Below, piece after piece: positions 23,663 to 48,304 of a stretch of DNA of 48,613 nt. The translations under genes and the position numbers were made by a program. Below the pieces are notes generated by a model. It saw only the letters and a program-made list of their open reading frames with translations, did no database searches and was not told the DNA's origin. The stretch is from Deltaproteobacteria bacterium (GTDB taxonomy: Bacteria; Desulfobacterota; Desulfobaccia; Desulfobaccales; 0-14-0-80-60-11). The stretch is from positions 1-48,613 of the forward strand of contig JASEFS010000027.1 in NCBI GenBank assembly GCA_030018495.1, written 5' to 3'. Numbering within the stretch: position 1 is the first letter of the stretch; each line of letters opens with the position of its first letter.

Positions 23663-25489
23663 CTAAGTTCTGACGCAGTATCTCATCACGAATTCCATCT
23701 GCGGAAAAAGCCGGGGCAGCCGCATAAGGTTGAAAACCATCACCCCCACTGCCAGACGGTCAAGCCAGGAAGACATGGGCCAACCGAAGTGCACCACTAT
23801 TTCGCGGTCCGGGAATTCGTACTCCACCACTTTCAGAAGACTGACGATGCGGTGATAGAGACTGATTTTGGTGAGCGGGAAGCAAAAGTGATGTTCCCCC
23901 ATTTTCGTAGGGGTCCCCAAACGCGGTGAGTAAAAGGTGATATAGGCCGCATTTCGCTCCGGAAATTCCAGGCCTGCTTCCGGAGTCCGGCGAAACAGCA
24001 GGTGCAGCTTTTTGGCCGGTGATTGGGCTAAATAGAGGATCATGCTCATTTCAGAGTCGGCTTTGGCGATTTCTCTGAGTTCCGGGGCGCGCTTTTGGAC
24101 CAGAAAGCCCCCGGCCAGAACCACCAGGGTGACCGTAGCCCACATCAACGTGGCATAGTGCTTCTCCAAAGCCAGGAAGACGAAGCAGCTTACCAGAATC
24201 ACCCACAGGGCCAGCGTGCCCAGGCGGCTGGTGGAGTAGTCGAGTTCCTTGGTGCCCATGAAGTAGCGGTACAGGATGAGGGAACCCATATTGATGCAGA
24301 AGGTGGCCAGAATGCCCATGGCGTACATATCAGCCAATAGCGATTGGCTGCCTTTGGTGAGGAAGATGATTACGGAGAAAAACGTGGCGCTGATCAGGTG
24401 GATGCGGTAAAGGGACTGCCTCCGGTTGGTGACGATGAGCCATTGAAAGCCGTAGCGGTGGGCCACCCGCTCCATCAGTTCGCTGGACGCGACAAACGCG
24501 GTGTTCACCGCCATCATTAGAGTAATGCTGGCCAGCGCCGCCACCGCGACGCCGAAGGGGGCGCCGTTGAGCAGGGCAGCATAATATGTGATGAGATCGC
24601 CTTCGTGCTGTTTGAAATCAATAGGTGCGGATAAAGCCAGCACTGACACCAGCGGCGTCACCACGCCTACGGTGAGGGCCAAAAAGAGGTAGGCCTTGCG
24701 AATCTCCCGCCAACTGCGGACCAGGCCCGCGGTTTGCAGCACTGATTCCACCCCGGAGTAAGCCAGGATGCAGAAAGCGATCTTGGAAATGAAGCGGCCG
24801 TAACTGGAGATCCAGGAGTCGGTTTGCAGGTGGGTCAACGATTCACCTGCGGCTTGGTGGATTCGCCCCAAGGAGGCCTGGTCCAAGGCCAGCAGGCCCG
24901 AGACAATGAGGTTGAGGATAATGACCGCGGCCAGGATGAAAATACTGAACGTAAAGCGGGCGTTGTCCCGGATGCCCAGGATGTTCAAACCCGCCACCGC
25001 CCAGATGATGCCCAGCACCCCGGCCATCTTCATCGGGTCGGAAATGGCGAAGAAAGACGTGGCATTCGCCACCGCGCTGACAGATGAGATGCAGGCGGTG
25101 AGGATATAATCCACCATAATGGAGGCCACGGCCACAAATGAAACCATGGGCCCCAGCACCAGGTAGGAGAAAGAATAAACCCCGCCGCCGATCAGGCCGT
25201 TGTGCTCCAGGATTTCGGCGATTTCCGTCAGCCTGGTGCTGAAAAAACGGATCAGCAGGCTGGTGAGGACGATATAGACAATAGCGCTGGCGCCGATAAA
25301 CCGATAGGCTTCCGCGGGCACATAAAAGATGGAAGTGAACTCATCCATCAAGGTGATGATGCCAACAGCAAAAAAGGTGAGCCACACCCGCCCCTGGTGG
25401 AAGTGAGTGAGCAGCCCCTTTTGCCGCAGCAAAACGACAAACACAATTATCAGCCCTGCATTGAGGGCCAGCAAAACCGTGGTTTTCAT
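23663..25489 (-). CDS. kimA: KimA-like potassium importer (APC superfamily)
   Basis: 608 residues with about 12 membrane helices (residues about 5-470) and a C-terminal soluble domain (about 475-608). It belongs to the amino acid-polyamine-organocation superfamily, but length and details match KimA (formerly YdaO), the high-affinity K+/H+ symporter of Bacillus subtilis. Residues aligned with the known K+ site appear conserved by spacing: Asp49-x6-Tyr56 in helix 1 (compare Asp36/Tyr43) and Asp127-x3-Thr131 in helix 3 (compare Asp117/Thr121). A c-di-AMP riboswitch of the class that controls kimA lies upstream on the same strand, which strongly supports the call. The start has GGAGGGG 8 nt upstream. 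An amino-acid permease is the alternative. Confidence 0.82.
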   Translation of the reverse strand: MKTTVLLALNAGLIIVFVVLLRQKGLLTHFHQGRVWLTFFAVGIITLMDEFTSIFYVPAEAYRFIGASAIVYIVLTSLLIRFFSTRLTEIAEILEHNGLIGGGVYSFSYLVLGPMVSFVAVASIMVDYILTACISSVSAVANATSFFAISDPMKMAGVLGIIWAVAGLNILGIRDNARFTFSIFILAAVIILNLIVSGLLALDQASLGRIHQAAGESLTHLQTDSWISSYGRFISKIAFCILAYSGVESVLQTAGLVRSWREIRKAYLFLALTVGVVTPLVSVLALSAPIDFKQHEGDLITYYAALLNGAPFGVAVAALASITLMMAVNTAFVASSELMERVAHRYGFQWLIVTNRRQSLYRIHLISATFFSVIIFLTKGSQSLLADMYAMGILATFCINMGSLILYRYFMGTKELDYSTSRLGTLALWVILVSCFVFLALEKHYATLMWATVTLVVLAGGFLVQKRAPELREIAKADSEMSMILYLAQSPAKKLHLLFRRTPEAGLEFPERNAAYITFYSPRLGTPTKMGEHHFCFPLTKISLYHRIVSLLKVVEYEFPDREIVVHFGWPMSSWLDRLAVGVMVFNLMRLPRLFPQMEFVMRYCVRT

Positions 25490-25804
25490 CGGTCAGACCC
25501 CTCCGGCGCGCCGCCTGGCAAAGCCGCGCCAAAGCCGAGCGCGCCTGATTAAAACGCACCTATCAATGGGAATAACCTTAAAATACGCGGCTTTCAGCCC
25601 TGGCTCAGGGTCCGTGAATTTGGAGGAGTCTCAGACGGAGAACCGACCTCTCCGTAGAGGTGTTATACGGCTGGGAGCGGGTTCTGATCCTGAAAATCGG
25701 CGATAAGGGGCGAATATCGCCCGAAAGAGGAATGATATCCATCATAAACCTCCGAATCGGATTTCCGGGAGAGTGACGCTCCCGGACCCGGTCCGGAAGG
25801 TTTC
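25490..25804 (-). other. Long kimA leader between riboswitch aptamer and start codon
   Basis: About 315 nt of transcribed leader on the minus strand. It contains two strong hairpins next to the aptamer (CCGGGAG/CTCCCGG at 25765-25785, and GGACC/GGTCC just before it), a small ORF with a good ribosome binding site (25605-25745), competing hairpins near 25643-25668 (CCTCT-ACGG-AGAGG against ACGGAGA/TCTCCGT) and a GC-rich inverted repeat near 25503-25545. No U-run terminator was found, so the control mechanism is not obvious. Confidence 0.5.
25605..25745 (-). CDS. Possible leader peptide (46 aa) upstream of kimA
   Basis: A 46-codon ORF starting with two Met codons, with GGAGG 3 nt upstream of the first. 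It begins MMDIIPLSGDIRPLSPIF and continues as an Arg-, Ser- and Thr-rich sequence ending LLQIHGP. No family is recognised. It lies within the leader between the c-di-AMP aptamer and kimA. The sequence AAACCTTCC just after the aptamer is complementary, with one bulge, to its ribosome binding site GGAGGTTT, so its translation could be structure-controlled. It could equally be a chance ORF. Confidence 0.35.
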   Translation of the reverse strand: MMDIIPLSGDIRPLSPIFRIRTRSQPYNTSTERSVLRLRLLQIHGP

Positions 25805-25930
25805 TCCCCATCGACGCCTACGAGGTTAGCTGGCGGGCTCGGACCGATGAGGTTGTCCTACGCTTGGAAGCGATGCGCCCCAAAAACTCGGGTCCCCCGT
25901 TCCCGCATCTCAATGCGGGATTCGGCGTAT
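25805..25930 (-). promoter_or_regulatory. Cyclic di-AMP riboswitch (ydaO-yuaA class)
   Basis: Read on the minus strand the region follows the ydaO-yuaA consensus closely. The P1 arm ACGCC-GAATCC opens it; a CCCGCAT-TGAG-ATGCGGG hairpin follows; then GAACGGGGGACCCGA, TTTTTGGGG, GTAGGACAACC and the diagnostic segment GAGCCCGCCAGCTAACCTCG; TAGGCGTC closes P1. This class binds c-di-AMP and normally switches genes off when the messenger is high; osmolyte and potassium transporters such as kimA are its typical targets, as here. A -10 box TATAAT (25937-25942), preceded by TG, puts the transcript start right at the aptamer. Identification is from recall of the consensus, without a covariance search. 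Confidence 0.88.
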
Positions 25931-25936
25931 GGTCTG

Positions 25937-25964
25937 ATTATATCACGACAGGGGAATGCACAAT
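25937..25964 (-). promoter_or_regulatory. Promoter of the riboswitch-kimA transcript
   Basis: Minus-strand extended -10 element TGATATAAT, with the hexamer TATAAT at 25937-25942. A weak -35 (TATTGT at 17 bp spacing) lies upstream. Transcription would begin near 25930, at the first base of the riboswitch. Confidence 0.6.
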
Positions 25965-25999: not shown

Positions 26000-26770
26000 C
26001 TATGGTTCGGCATCGGCTGCCCCGGCGCTCTCAGGCGCATCTAGAGAAGGCGGCCCGCAGGTCGGGCAGGCATTGGGATGAGTCTTGCGAGCCTCCGCGA
26101 CCGAGGTGAAAGTCAGCAAACGTTCAGGGCGTATAAGCTTGACCCACTTACAGCCGGGGAAATGGTATTTATCGGAGGTCTTGGATCCTACATACCGGAC
26201 GGCGGGTTTCGCCTCAATGGGCTGGGCAGCGCCCTCAGATTGAACCGCGCCCTCGGGAACGGCGGCACCGGAATCCGCCGGAGTCAAAGCAGCAGCTCCC
26301 GGATTATGGTCGGCCCCGCCGGCCTTATCCGACTCCTCAGGCTTGACCTGTTCCCTGAAGTTGACGCTGATAACCGGAATCGCTTCGGCGTCAGGGGCCG
26401 GCATGGCCTTGGAGGCGCTGCTCTGAGCAGGGGCTTTCGGAAGATCTGCGTCATTTTCTCCTTCAGGCGACCTGGTCGCCTCTGTTCCAGCAAAAGGGAG
26501 GGGGGAGCGCAAAAATGACGACCAGCCTTTCAGCTCCGCGGCCCCGGCTGCCCTGTCGCTCATATGGATACTGTGGTGCAGATACCCTGACAGCGCTGTC
26601 GCCGCCAGCAAAAACAGAGAGAGAAGGGTTACCGCGGCTTTTAGGCGGCGGTTTTGTTTTTCCAGGGCAATCAGCCTAAGTTGTTGGAATATCGCCTGTT
26701 TTTCCTGGGCTTTAAGGGATGTAAACAGAGAATCGCTCTCGTCCTCCTTTAACCTTCTGGCAGGCACCAT
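26000..26770 (-). CDS. Membrane-anchored protein with Ada-type zinc-binding domain
   Basis: 256 residues from ATG 26770 with an ideal ribosome binding site (GGAGGAATAAA). Residues about 1-40 are charged and probably coiled; residues about 47-68 form one membrane helix (AVTLLSLFLLAATALSGYL). Residues about 70-190 are a Pro/Ala/Glu-rich linker. The C-terminal 60 residues (YVGSKTSDKYHFPGCKWVKL...AEARKTHPNACPTC) match the small Ada metal-binding module, with Cys at the FPGC and CPTC positions expected to bind zinc. Similar modules occur fused to secreted nucleases or to membrane anchors. The orientation would put the zinc domain outside the cytoplasm. Function unknown. Transcribed away from dppF. 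Confidence 0.7.
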   Translation of the reverse strand: MVPARRLKEDESDSLFTSLKAQEKQAIFQQLRLIALEKQNRRLKAAVTLLSLFLLAATALSGYLHHSIHMSDRAAGAAELKGWSSFLRSPLPFAGTEATRSPEGENDADLPKAPAQSSASKAMPAPDAEAIPVISVNFREQVKPEESDKAGGADHNPGAAALTPADSGAAVPEGAVQSEGAAQPIEAKPAVRYVGSKTSDKYHFPGCKWVKLIRPERLLTFTSVAEARKTHPNACPTCGPPSLDAPESAGAADAEP

Positions 26771-27040
26771 TTTATTCCTCCAGCTAAATCGGCAAATGCT
26801 TTTTGAAAAGAATTCCTTGCCGACACCCTCAAAAGAGAGGACTCTTCGAGGCTTTGCCGGATTTATTGAGTTATCCCCCGGATATGACAATTCCAAAAAT
26901 TGTGCCAAAGCTCATAAGAGTCGCCTCTGCATGCTTTTCCATTTTGTCTGCCGGTAATGGAAAAACTGCCCATGGGCCTGGGCCTGCAGCTTCTTGCACT
27001 CGCAATATTCCCGCGATTTTGCCATCTGGTATAATAAGGC

Positions 27041-47026: not shown

Positions 47027-47051
47027 CAACCTCGGCAAGCAGGATTATAAT
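47023..47051 (+). promoter_or_regulatory. Consensus sigma-70 promoter for the cobalamin-riboswitch transcript
   Basis: TTGACA (47023-47028), a 17-bp spacer, and TATAAT (47046-47051): both boxes match consensus exactly. The DUF89 stop codon lies within the -35 hexamer. Transcription would begin near 47058, just before the riboswitch. Confidence 0.9.
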
Positions 47052-47062
47052 ATGTTCACCAT

Positions 47063-47221
47063 TAAGGTCCCGATAGGGGCAAAAGGGAAGCCGGTGAAAA
47101 TCCGGCGCGGTCCCGCCGCTGTGATTGGGGACGAAACCGGCAGGAAAGCCACTGAGACGGCAAGACTGACTCGGGAAGGCGCCGGGAGTAGGATGAGCCA
47201 AGAGCCAGAAGACCTGCCTTA
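47063..47221 (+). promoter_or_regulatory. Cobalamin (AdoCbl) riboswitch
   Basis: Classic B12-element order: P1 arm AAGGTC, then GGGAAGCCGGTGAAAATCCG, GCGCGGTCCCGCCGCTGTGA, the B12-box-type sequence CCGGCAGGAAAGCCACTGAGAC, CGGGAAGGCGCCGGGAGTAG, and AAGACCTGCCTT closing P1. It binds adenosylcobalamin and turns down the downstream uptake gene when B12 is plentiful. It lies right after a consensus promoter and before an intrinsic terminator and the BtuF-like gene. Confidence 0.95.
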
Positions 47222-47228
47222 ATGCGAC

Positions 47229-47326
47229 AAACGCCGGGCTGCGCGGCAACGGTCCGGCGTTTCCCTGAGGACCAAGAAAACTGGGTGCAATCCTCAACTC
47301 TTCGAACGGGTTGAGGATTTTTTTTT
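47229..47326 (+). terminator. Riboswitch expression platform and intrinsic terminator
   Basis: A 9-bp stem (AAACGCCGG at 47229-47237 with CCGGCGTTT at 47254-47262) is followed by a terminator: ATCCTCAAC (47290-47298) pairs with GTTGAGGAT (47310-47318), then nine Ts (47318-47326). Bound cobalamin would favour termination ahead of the BtuF-like gene. Which antiterminator pairing competes was not resolved. Confidence 0.85.
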
Positions 47327-47383: not shown

Positions 47384-48304
47384 ATGCGCAAATCGACTTT
47401 ATTGGTGGGCCTGATTGCCCTTTTTCTTATCCATGGCGCCCTGGCGGCCCTGGTTCTCCTGGCCCGGCAGACTCCGGAATCCCGTGCCCGCGTGGACCAG
47501 GGCCGGCAGGTTTTACCCGCCCGCCCGCCTCAGCGCCTCGTTTCTCTGGCGCCCAGCATCACGGAAATCCTTTATTTTTTGGAGCAGGGCGACAAGGTGG
47601 TGGGAGTCACCGCGTTTTGCAATTATCCCTCTGAGGTAAAGAATAAACCCCGTATCGGCACTTATTGGGATTTTAACCTGGAGGCCATTCTGGCCCTGAA
47701 GCCCGACTTGGCCCTGGGCATGGCGCACCAGGGAGAAGGCCAGGGCGCCTATGAGATTCTCAAGGAATGGGGGGTGCCTCTCTATTTGGCCAAGGCTGAC
47801 ACTTTGGCTGAATTGTTCCATCAGGTTCAGGAAATCGCCCGTCTGACAGGGTCTGAAGAAACGGCGCACCGCAAACTCCCTGGCCTGGAAGACAGGGTGC
47901 GGCGCATCGAAAATGGCGTGCACGGCCTGCCCAAGCCCAAAGTTTTTTTGCAGATCGACCAGGAGCCCCTGATTACCGTAGGCCGCCTCTCCATCCATAA
48001 CGACCTGATTGAGAGGGCCGGCGGGGAAAACATCGCGGGCCACATCGACCAGCGCTATCCTGTCTACAGCCTGGAAGAAGTGCTGCGGGCCCGGCCCGAA
48101 GTCATCCTGTTCACCGGCATGGTGGGCGAGAAGGTGCTGCCGCTGCGGCTTAAATTCTGGCGTCCCTGGAGCATGCTGCCCGCGGTGGAGAATAAACGCC
48201 TTTCCTGGGTGGACCCGGACCTCATCGACCGCCCCGGCCCCCGCCTGGTGGACGGCCTGGAGTTCCTGGCCCGGTTTTTTCACCCCGGGGTTATCCGGAA
48301 CTGA
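47384..48304 (+). CDS. btuF: BtuF-like cobalamin/iron-siderophore ABC substrate-binding protein
   Basis: 306 residues. An N-terminal membrane/signal segment (TLLVGLIALFLIHGALAALV) precedes the helical-backbone binding-protein fold of cluster A-II: RLVSLAPSITEILYFLEQGD, VVGVTAFCNYPSEVKNKPRIG and NLEAILALKPDLALG in the first lobe, and NDLIERAGGENIAG and YSLEEVLRARPEVILF in the second. These features match BtuF/FhuD-type proteins; the cobalamin riboswitch upstream makes corrinoid the probable ligand. The first segment has no obvious lipobox, so it may be membrane-anchored. Permease and ATPase genes (btuCD) would be expected beyond the right edge. Confidence 0.9.
   Translation: MRKSTLLVGLIALFLIHGALAALVLLARQTPESRARVDQGRQVLPARPPQRLVSLAPSITEILYFLEQGDKVVGVTAFCNYPSEVKNKPRIGTYWDFNLEAILALKPDLALGMAHQGEGQGAYEILKEWGVPLYLAKADTLAELFHQVQEIARLTGSEETAHRKLPGLEDRVRRIENGVHGLPKPKVFLQIDQEPLITVGRLSIHNDLIERAGGENIAGHIDQRYPVYSLEEVLRARPEVILFTGMVGEKVLPLRLKFWRPWSMLPAVENKRLSWVDPDLIDRPGPRLVDGLEFLARFFHPGVIRN

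Follow-up and report, generated by a model that had tools for sequence, protein, structure and literature searches.

A c-di-AMP riboswitch ahead of a KimA-like transporter gene in a Deltaproteobacteria genome

The locus and the c-di-AMP genes of the same genome

We analysed a stretch of 48,613 nt (the window) that had been thought, from its letters, to come from a Desulfobacterota genome, and its relatives are indeed Desulfobacca and Syntrophobacteraceae MAGs. On its minus strand a riboswitch, a leader with a putative upstream ORF (uORF) and a transporter gene follow one another:

25937 to 25945, minus strand: extended -10 promoter element TGATATAAT, read directly from the letters
25800 to 25937, minus strand: c-di-AMP (ydaO/yuaA) riboswitch aptamer RF00379, full model
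25845 to 25852, minus strand: 5' strand of a pseudoknot, in the aptamer loop, CCUCAUCG (8 bp with 25813-25806)
25806 to 25813, minus strand: 3' strand of the pseudoknot, CGAUGGGG, just 3' of P1 (8-bp helix and covariation)
25746 to 25803, minus strand: Shine-Dalgarno-sequestering hairpin (AAACCUUCCGG...CGGAGGUUU), likely expression platform (-36.5 kcal/mol, z -2.7)
25749 to 25753, minus strand: Shine-Dalgarno GGAGG of the putative uORF, a place occupied by the kup/kimA Shine-Dalgarno in relatives
25605 to 25745, minus strand: putative uORF of 46 codons (MMDIIPLSGDIRPLSPIFRIRTRSQPYNTSTERSVLRLRLLQIHGP), its start position homologous to kup starts
25498 to 25504, minus strand: transporter Shine-Dalgarno GGAGGGG, read directly (local fold ordinary, z -0.5)
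23663 to 25489, minus strand: KimA-like APC-superfamily transporter of 608 aa, putative H+-coupled K+ importer (Pfam, KimA matches, site residues)

The original prediction had recognised a ydaO-yuaA core, and the motifs that it quoted, GGGGGACCC, TTTTTGGGG and CAGCTAACCTCGTAGGCG with ACGCC, are present in the aptamer. The Rfam scan matched RF00379 at 25937-25800 of the minus strand with 98.8 bits against a gathering score of 38 (E 2.5e-22, model positions 1-134); the aptamer is full-length and no non-standard pairs are marked in it. It is the single c-di-AMP riboswitch of the 3.46-Mb genome (E 4.1e-24 there). The extended -10 box, also predicted to lie directly before the aptamer, is found at 25945-25937, its 3' end coinciding with the first position of the aptamer model. 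TGnTATAAT occurs twice in the 48.6-kb window, both strands counted. No good -35 lies before TGATATAAT, and because of this poor -35 a strict sigma-70 scan lists no promoter there. The aptamer end is 310 nt from the transporter ATG, which corrects the 316 nt first given. We expect the riboswitch to bind c-di-AMP and to alter expression. In related loci of the family (L005-L009, L063, L066, L081) a short hairpin, absent from the window, stands directly 5' of the aptamer, with arms that vary (GGCC/GGCC, GGTC/GACC, GTCAGCC/GGCTGAC).

A search of the genome for a diadenylate cyclase found CdaA (TIGR00159, 231 bits against a cut-off of 188.8), flanked in the usual folP-cdaA-ybbR order by dihydropteroate-synthase-like (folP) and ybbR-like genes, both named by eye. 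A PgpH-type 7TM-HD hydrolase is encoded as well. DAC enzymes are known in Deltaproteobacteria (PMC5575661). The same genome holds two short stand-alone DAC-domain proteins (L002:1399-1992 and L003:1405-1920; G000:C24, C44), putative cyclases that are nearest to archaeal-type DacZ, below its cut-off, and that keep DGA while GSRHM replaces the RHR motif; one of them has a Na+/H+ exchanger on one side and a MutS-domain protein on the other. As to K+ genes, TrkA_C proteins are present, and neither Kup nor KdpA was found in the genome. Elsewhere in the window, a cobalamin riboswitch (RF00174, 118 bits) lies at 47048-47235 on the plus strand, upstream of an ORF at 47384-48301 whose product resembles, by eye, a BtuF-type substrate-binding protein. 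Upstream of the c-di-AMP riboswitch on the same strand, 26000-26908 (minus) encodes a membrane-anchored protein of 302 aa; the motif at its C terminus, YVGSKTSDKYHFPGCKWVKLI, looks sunset/Ada-metal-binding-like by eye.

Identity of the transporter

The predicted 608-aa APC transporter is the ORF at 25489-23663 (minus strand). Its only Pfam match is AA_permease_2 (84 bits against a cut-off of 27), the K_trans profile of Kup (PF02705) being absent among its Pfam matches. Taken by itself, this match would favour an APC permease for amino acids or organic solutes, placed under c-di-AMP control as an osmolyte importer. However, AA_permease_2 also matches a canonical KimA relative (G038:C60), so it does not separate KimA from amino-acid permeases. 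B. subtilis KimA is the only solved relative by sequence and gives the best PDB match (6s3k; E 4e-6 with the single sequence, 1e-6 with a profile). The predicted structure, of moderate confidence (pLDDT 70), has KimA as its top fold matches (8b70/8b71/6s3k; Foldseek E 3e-14; Z 38.6), with an rmsd of 14.1 over 531 residues that is high because the two domains are set differently in the model and in KimA. LeuT-fold amino-acid carriers score only slightly below KimA in the transmembrane part, which again speaks for a permease, as does the position of E248 within an SGVES motif, presumably one common to many APC carriers. Against it, TM1 lacks a GxGIF-type motif and has the KimA pattern D-x2-[TS]-S-x2-Y instead. 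Profile-profile comparison also sets the transporter apart from amino-acid permeases, with a match of 96.5% to KimA of the same phylum, 1.4-1.6% to two amino-acid permease groups and 0.9% to Kup. Finally, the partners of the riboswitch in relatives are K+ importers. Altogether we regard the permease reading as improbable.

In the tree the clade of the window transporter forms its own deep branch (SH-aLRT 99), outside the KimA group (94) and the Kup branch (100), and 25 ordinary permeases from this phylum group at 100% on a branch that excludes it; the tree does not settle the order of the deep branches. The earlier label is apt as "KimA-like" on the profile match, whereas plain "KimA" would go beyond what the tree gives; the transporter is a KimA-like member of an uncharacterised Desulfobacterota clade. 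Like KimA, it is about 608 aa long and carries a cytosolic domain at its C terminus. It also holds equivalents of the KimA K+/H+ site residues D36, Y43, T121, S125, E233 and Y377 (PMC6994465): D49, Y56, T131, S135, E248 and Y389 do not vary among 17 members of the clade, which share 61-75% identity, a conservation beyond chance. The last three of these residues had not been named in the original prediction. D127 is kept in 16 of the 17, and the predicted spacing of Asp49/Tyr56 and Asp127/Thr131 is that of D36/Y43 and D117/T121 in KimA. Unlike KimA, the clade has Gln at the position of N237 and Ser245, in all 17 members, at that of T230. Thr230 also coordinates K+ in KimA, where T230A is near wild type (PMC6994465). 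Arg337, which contacts c-di-AMP in KimA and is reported not to be essential for inhibition (PMC10284832), is replaced by Q, H, L or F. Modelled alone (pLDDT 76), the C-terminal domain had no confident PDB match (best Z 5.6, an unrelated fold); KimA is not among the matches listed, and the domain is not recognisably the PPAT-like c-di-AMP-binding domain of KimA. With Arg337 not conserved and this domain lacking a confident fold match, the idea that c-di-AMP also inhibits the protein directly finds no support here.

Another uncharacterised APC family, with proteins of about 600 aa (L086, G000:C44:36177-37028, and L136), has a KimA-like D-x2-S-S-x2-Y in TM1, a cytosolic C-terminal domain and a 96.3% profile match to the window clade; L086, its copy in the genome of the window, is cut short. 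Moreover, ORFs of 144-204 aa in two genomes (G069:C364, C240, C380; G104:C36, C311) match only the C-terminal cytosolic domain of the transporter, as if this domain also existed there as a free protein.

The company that the riboswitch keeps bears on the substrate. RF00379 is carried by 34 of 148 related genomes, where it precedes the window transporter type (13 genomes), Kup, canonical KimA, KdpA or secreted cell-wall-type proteins; in G117 it stands before an RlpA-like DPBB protein. In another collection, with loci found via the transporter, 15 of 21 have RF00379 directly upstream, and several clade members come without it. Given that the riboswitch is shared with K+ importers in relatives, our strongest reason, and given the site residues, the clade would import K+ together with H+. 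In two loci (L005:5998-7881, L009:5953-7818) the transporter occurs in tandem pairs behind one riboswitch. A 1080-aa frame in G117 that resembled a fusion protein was discarded, its extra part being another-frame reading of the upstream radA-like gene. Behind a weaker riboswitch (61-64 bits) in three genomes (L110, L112, L114; G022, G024, G026) lies a 118-aa secreted protein (TAYxxxGRTASG...) without a Pfam match, by eye like 3D-domain proteins and possibly a cell-wall enzyme.

The leader between aptamer and transporter

A loop of the aptamer pairs with the flank just 3' of P1, a pseudoknot that we take to belong to the known ydaO-class architecture. Among 33 distinct aptamers, pairing of each loop with its own flank scored 16.9, against 13.0 +/- 0.46 when flanks were re-dealt, and none of 5000 permutations reached as high. 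The letters differ between loci (CCUCUUCG with CGAAGGGG in L011, CUUCCAA with UUGGAAG in L010 and others), and the pseudoknot holds in the aptamers of this group. The closest members of the family have AGGAGG as this flank, and their pseudoknot strand doubles as the Shine-Dalgarno of a short ORF; in L063 and L066, alone in the present set and unlike the window, the stop of that ORF overlaps the transporter start, an arrangement for translational coupling.

Downstream of the pseudoknot, the hairpin of the window hides a Shine-Dalgarno. The unpaired probability of this site is 0.00, against 0.31 with the 5' part shuffled, and 1.5% of shuffles are as low. Sequestration likewise occurs in most kup and kimA leaders bearing this platform, and the hiding exceeds shuffled controls in nine of 12 leaders; for two of the remaining three (L111, L039) the scan may have taken a neighbouring GGAG rather than the true site. 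A ACCUUCCGG segment pairs with CGGAGGU in the window, in L011 and in those kup and kimA leaders that belong to the other type. The distance from the start codon to the reference point is 71-84 nt in kup and kimA leaders and 75/78 nt in the window. What differs is the gene: the hidden site starts the importer itself in kup and kimA leaders and the putative uORF in the window and L011, whose importer start lies 230-270 nt beyond. An extended P1 as the element that hides the Shine-Dalgarno was ruled out in close relatives, where a separate hairpin occupies the 5' side.

We call the uORF putative because, L065 apart, no leader ORF taken singly has an improbable length (P 0.07-0.34; 0.18 for the window by length alone) and because Ka/Ks among four f1 uORFs is only 0.37-0.74; as a proven gene it was rejected. 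In L065 (G007), the 196-codon ORF of the leader, between riboswitch and gene, continues in the same frame into what is left of a C-terminal transporter domain, which records an earlier deletion or duplication at that locus.

This geometry invites the thought that the riboswitch was left over from a lost kup and controls the uORF only, the transporter being served by a promoter of its own in the leader. In favour of this, both aptamer and platform are of the type seen at kup, the hidden start is that of the uORF, and 115 nt separate the uORF stop from the transporter. Yet no sigma-70-like site is found in the leader, the aptamer is fully intact at 98.8 bits, and the linkage of riboswitch and transporter is conserved across many genera, all of which makes a relic unlikely.

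Transcription attenuation, by the post-aptamer hairpin or by Rho on the C-rich untranslated leader, would leave riboswitch and importer as they are and change the platform only: transcription would stop once c-di-AMP is bound. The transporter Shine-Dalgarno is not near the aptamer, the leader being 310 nt long; the hairpin is strong; a 78-nt stretch of the leader is C-rich and G-poor (C/G 2.2); and in the relative L010 a hairpin plus T8 terminator, recognised by eye, stands at the corresponding place. On the other side, the terminator scan found no intrinsic terminator in the window leader, where only three T follow the hairpin, and where kup or kimA leaders contain this hairpin, the start codon follows it directly. 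We give attenuation a real but minor share of the probability. The platform is probably not an intrinsic terminator such as those reported from Bacillus, and the leader looks translational. For the Bacillus-like circuit first proposed, this leaves the c-di-AMP riboswitch in place and changes the probable way in which it turns the gene off.

In our preferred reading, which we consider likely, a monocistronic mRNA that encodes a KimA-like proton-coupled K+ importer begins with an OFF riboswitch responding to c-di-AMP. At high cell K+, CdaA would make c-di-AMP, which would stabilise the aptamer and the loop-flank pseudoknot, so that the leader is kept closed and expression is blocked. At low K+, with c-di-AMP removed by PgpH, the leader would open and the importer would be made. 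Control would run via ribosome access at the leader, directly in the kup and kimA relatives and through the uORF in the window. From the uORF to the importer the step may consist in exposing the mRNA to Rho or shielding it, in reinitiation, or in something else. Against this reading, the hidden Shine-Dalgarno of the window serves the uORF and not the transporter. We also count against it the tree position, the changes at T230, N237 and Arg337, the C-terminal domain, the pLDDT of 70, the close scores of amino-acid carriers in the transmembrane part and the riboswitch-less clade members. Moreover, the predicted fold hides the Shine-Dalgarno with or without the aptamer forced, and no opening is predicted without ligand.

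Probable exchange of importers behind the riboswitch

In a tree of aptamers built with short flanks, the window aptamer nests among the kup riboswitches from its own family and order (98/80, 97/83). Grouping it with the remaining f1 leaders of this transporter lowers the log-likelihood by 14.7, but the AU test does not reject that grouping (p 0.084). The nesting fits the pseudoknot letters and the platform held in common: the Desulfobaccales-like kup leaders (G003, G004, G006, G022, G024, G026) have the pairing CCUCAUCG with CGAUGGGG, the anti-Shine-Dalgarno and the start-codon spacing of the window, unlike which they precede kup; in the window a KimA-like transporter follows and the old start position begins the uORF. 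The window is thus probably a kup-type riboswitch on a KimA-like transporter. The reverse case is firm, as the G002 kup riboswitch nests inside riboswitches of the window transporter type (AU p 1.8e-5), and aptamers of other types also accompany more than one importer. Label changes on the aptamer tree number seven for the window clade, five for Kup and seven for KimA. Gene neighbourhoods are suggestive only: three homologs of window genes in G004 (41%, 33-59% and 71% identical) and one in G003 are found no more than a few kb from the kup riboswitch, but in the window those genes are about 11-20 kb from the riboswitch. Tentatively, and with less confidence than in the circuit itself, we propose that in Desulfobacterota the riboswitch is an exchangeable module, repeatedly re-paired among Kup, KimA, Kdp and the window clade, and that in the window the start of a lost kup became a uORF that relays the switch to the replacement importer.

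Much of this has counterparts elsewhere. The riboswitch class, its K+ targets and its occurrence in Proteobacteria were already known or predicted (PMC6488665), and a review names ydaO as a case in which docking occludes the ribosome-binding site (PMC10907184). In B. subtilis, the kimA (ydaO) leader likewise places a c-di-AMP riboswitch before a KimA-type importer, the K+/H+ symporter KimA; the window leader differs in having no intrinsic terminator and in its Gram-negative host. The kdpFABC riboswitch of B. thuringiensis shares the aptamer class, a K+ importer as target and OFF logic, but this Firmicutes system uses an intrinsic terminator (PMC6488665). B12 riboswitches of M. tuberculosis also have a short ORF in the leader whose translation affects the downstream gene; their ligand is another, and uORF translation was shown there, whereas that of the window is predicted (PMC11260477). 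The control circuit is real but mostly of known type. New, as far as the literature searched goes, are the importer clade, the reciprocal re-pairing and the reuse of a kup start by a putative uORF. To the first remark that c-di-AMP signalling is little studied in this group it should be added that c-di-AMP riboswitches on K+ genes had already been predicted in Proteobacteria (PMC6488665).

For the sulfate-reducer relatives, where the literature searched had almost nothing of the kind, the locus offers a concrete c-di-AMP/potassium circuit. It also draws attention to a clade of probable K+ importers, so far uncharacterised, whose members family libraries name only as amino-acid permeases. The pairing of one riboswitch with different importers serves as natural evidence for a common function of these proteins, and shows regulation being kept while the regulated gene is replaced.
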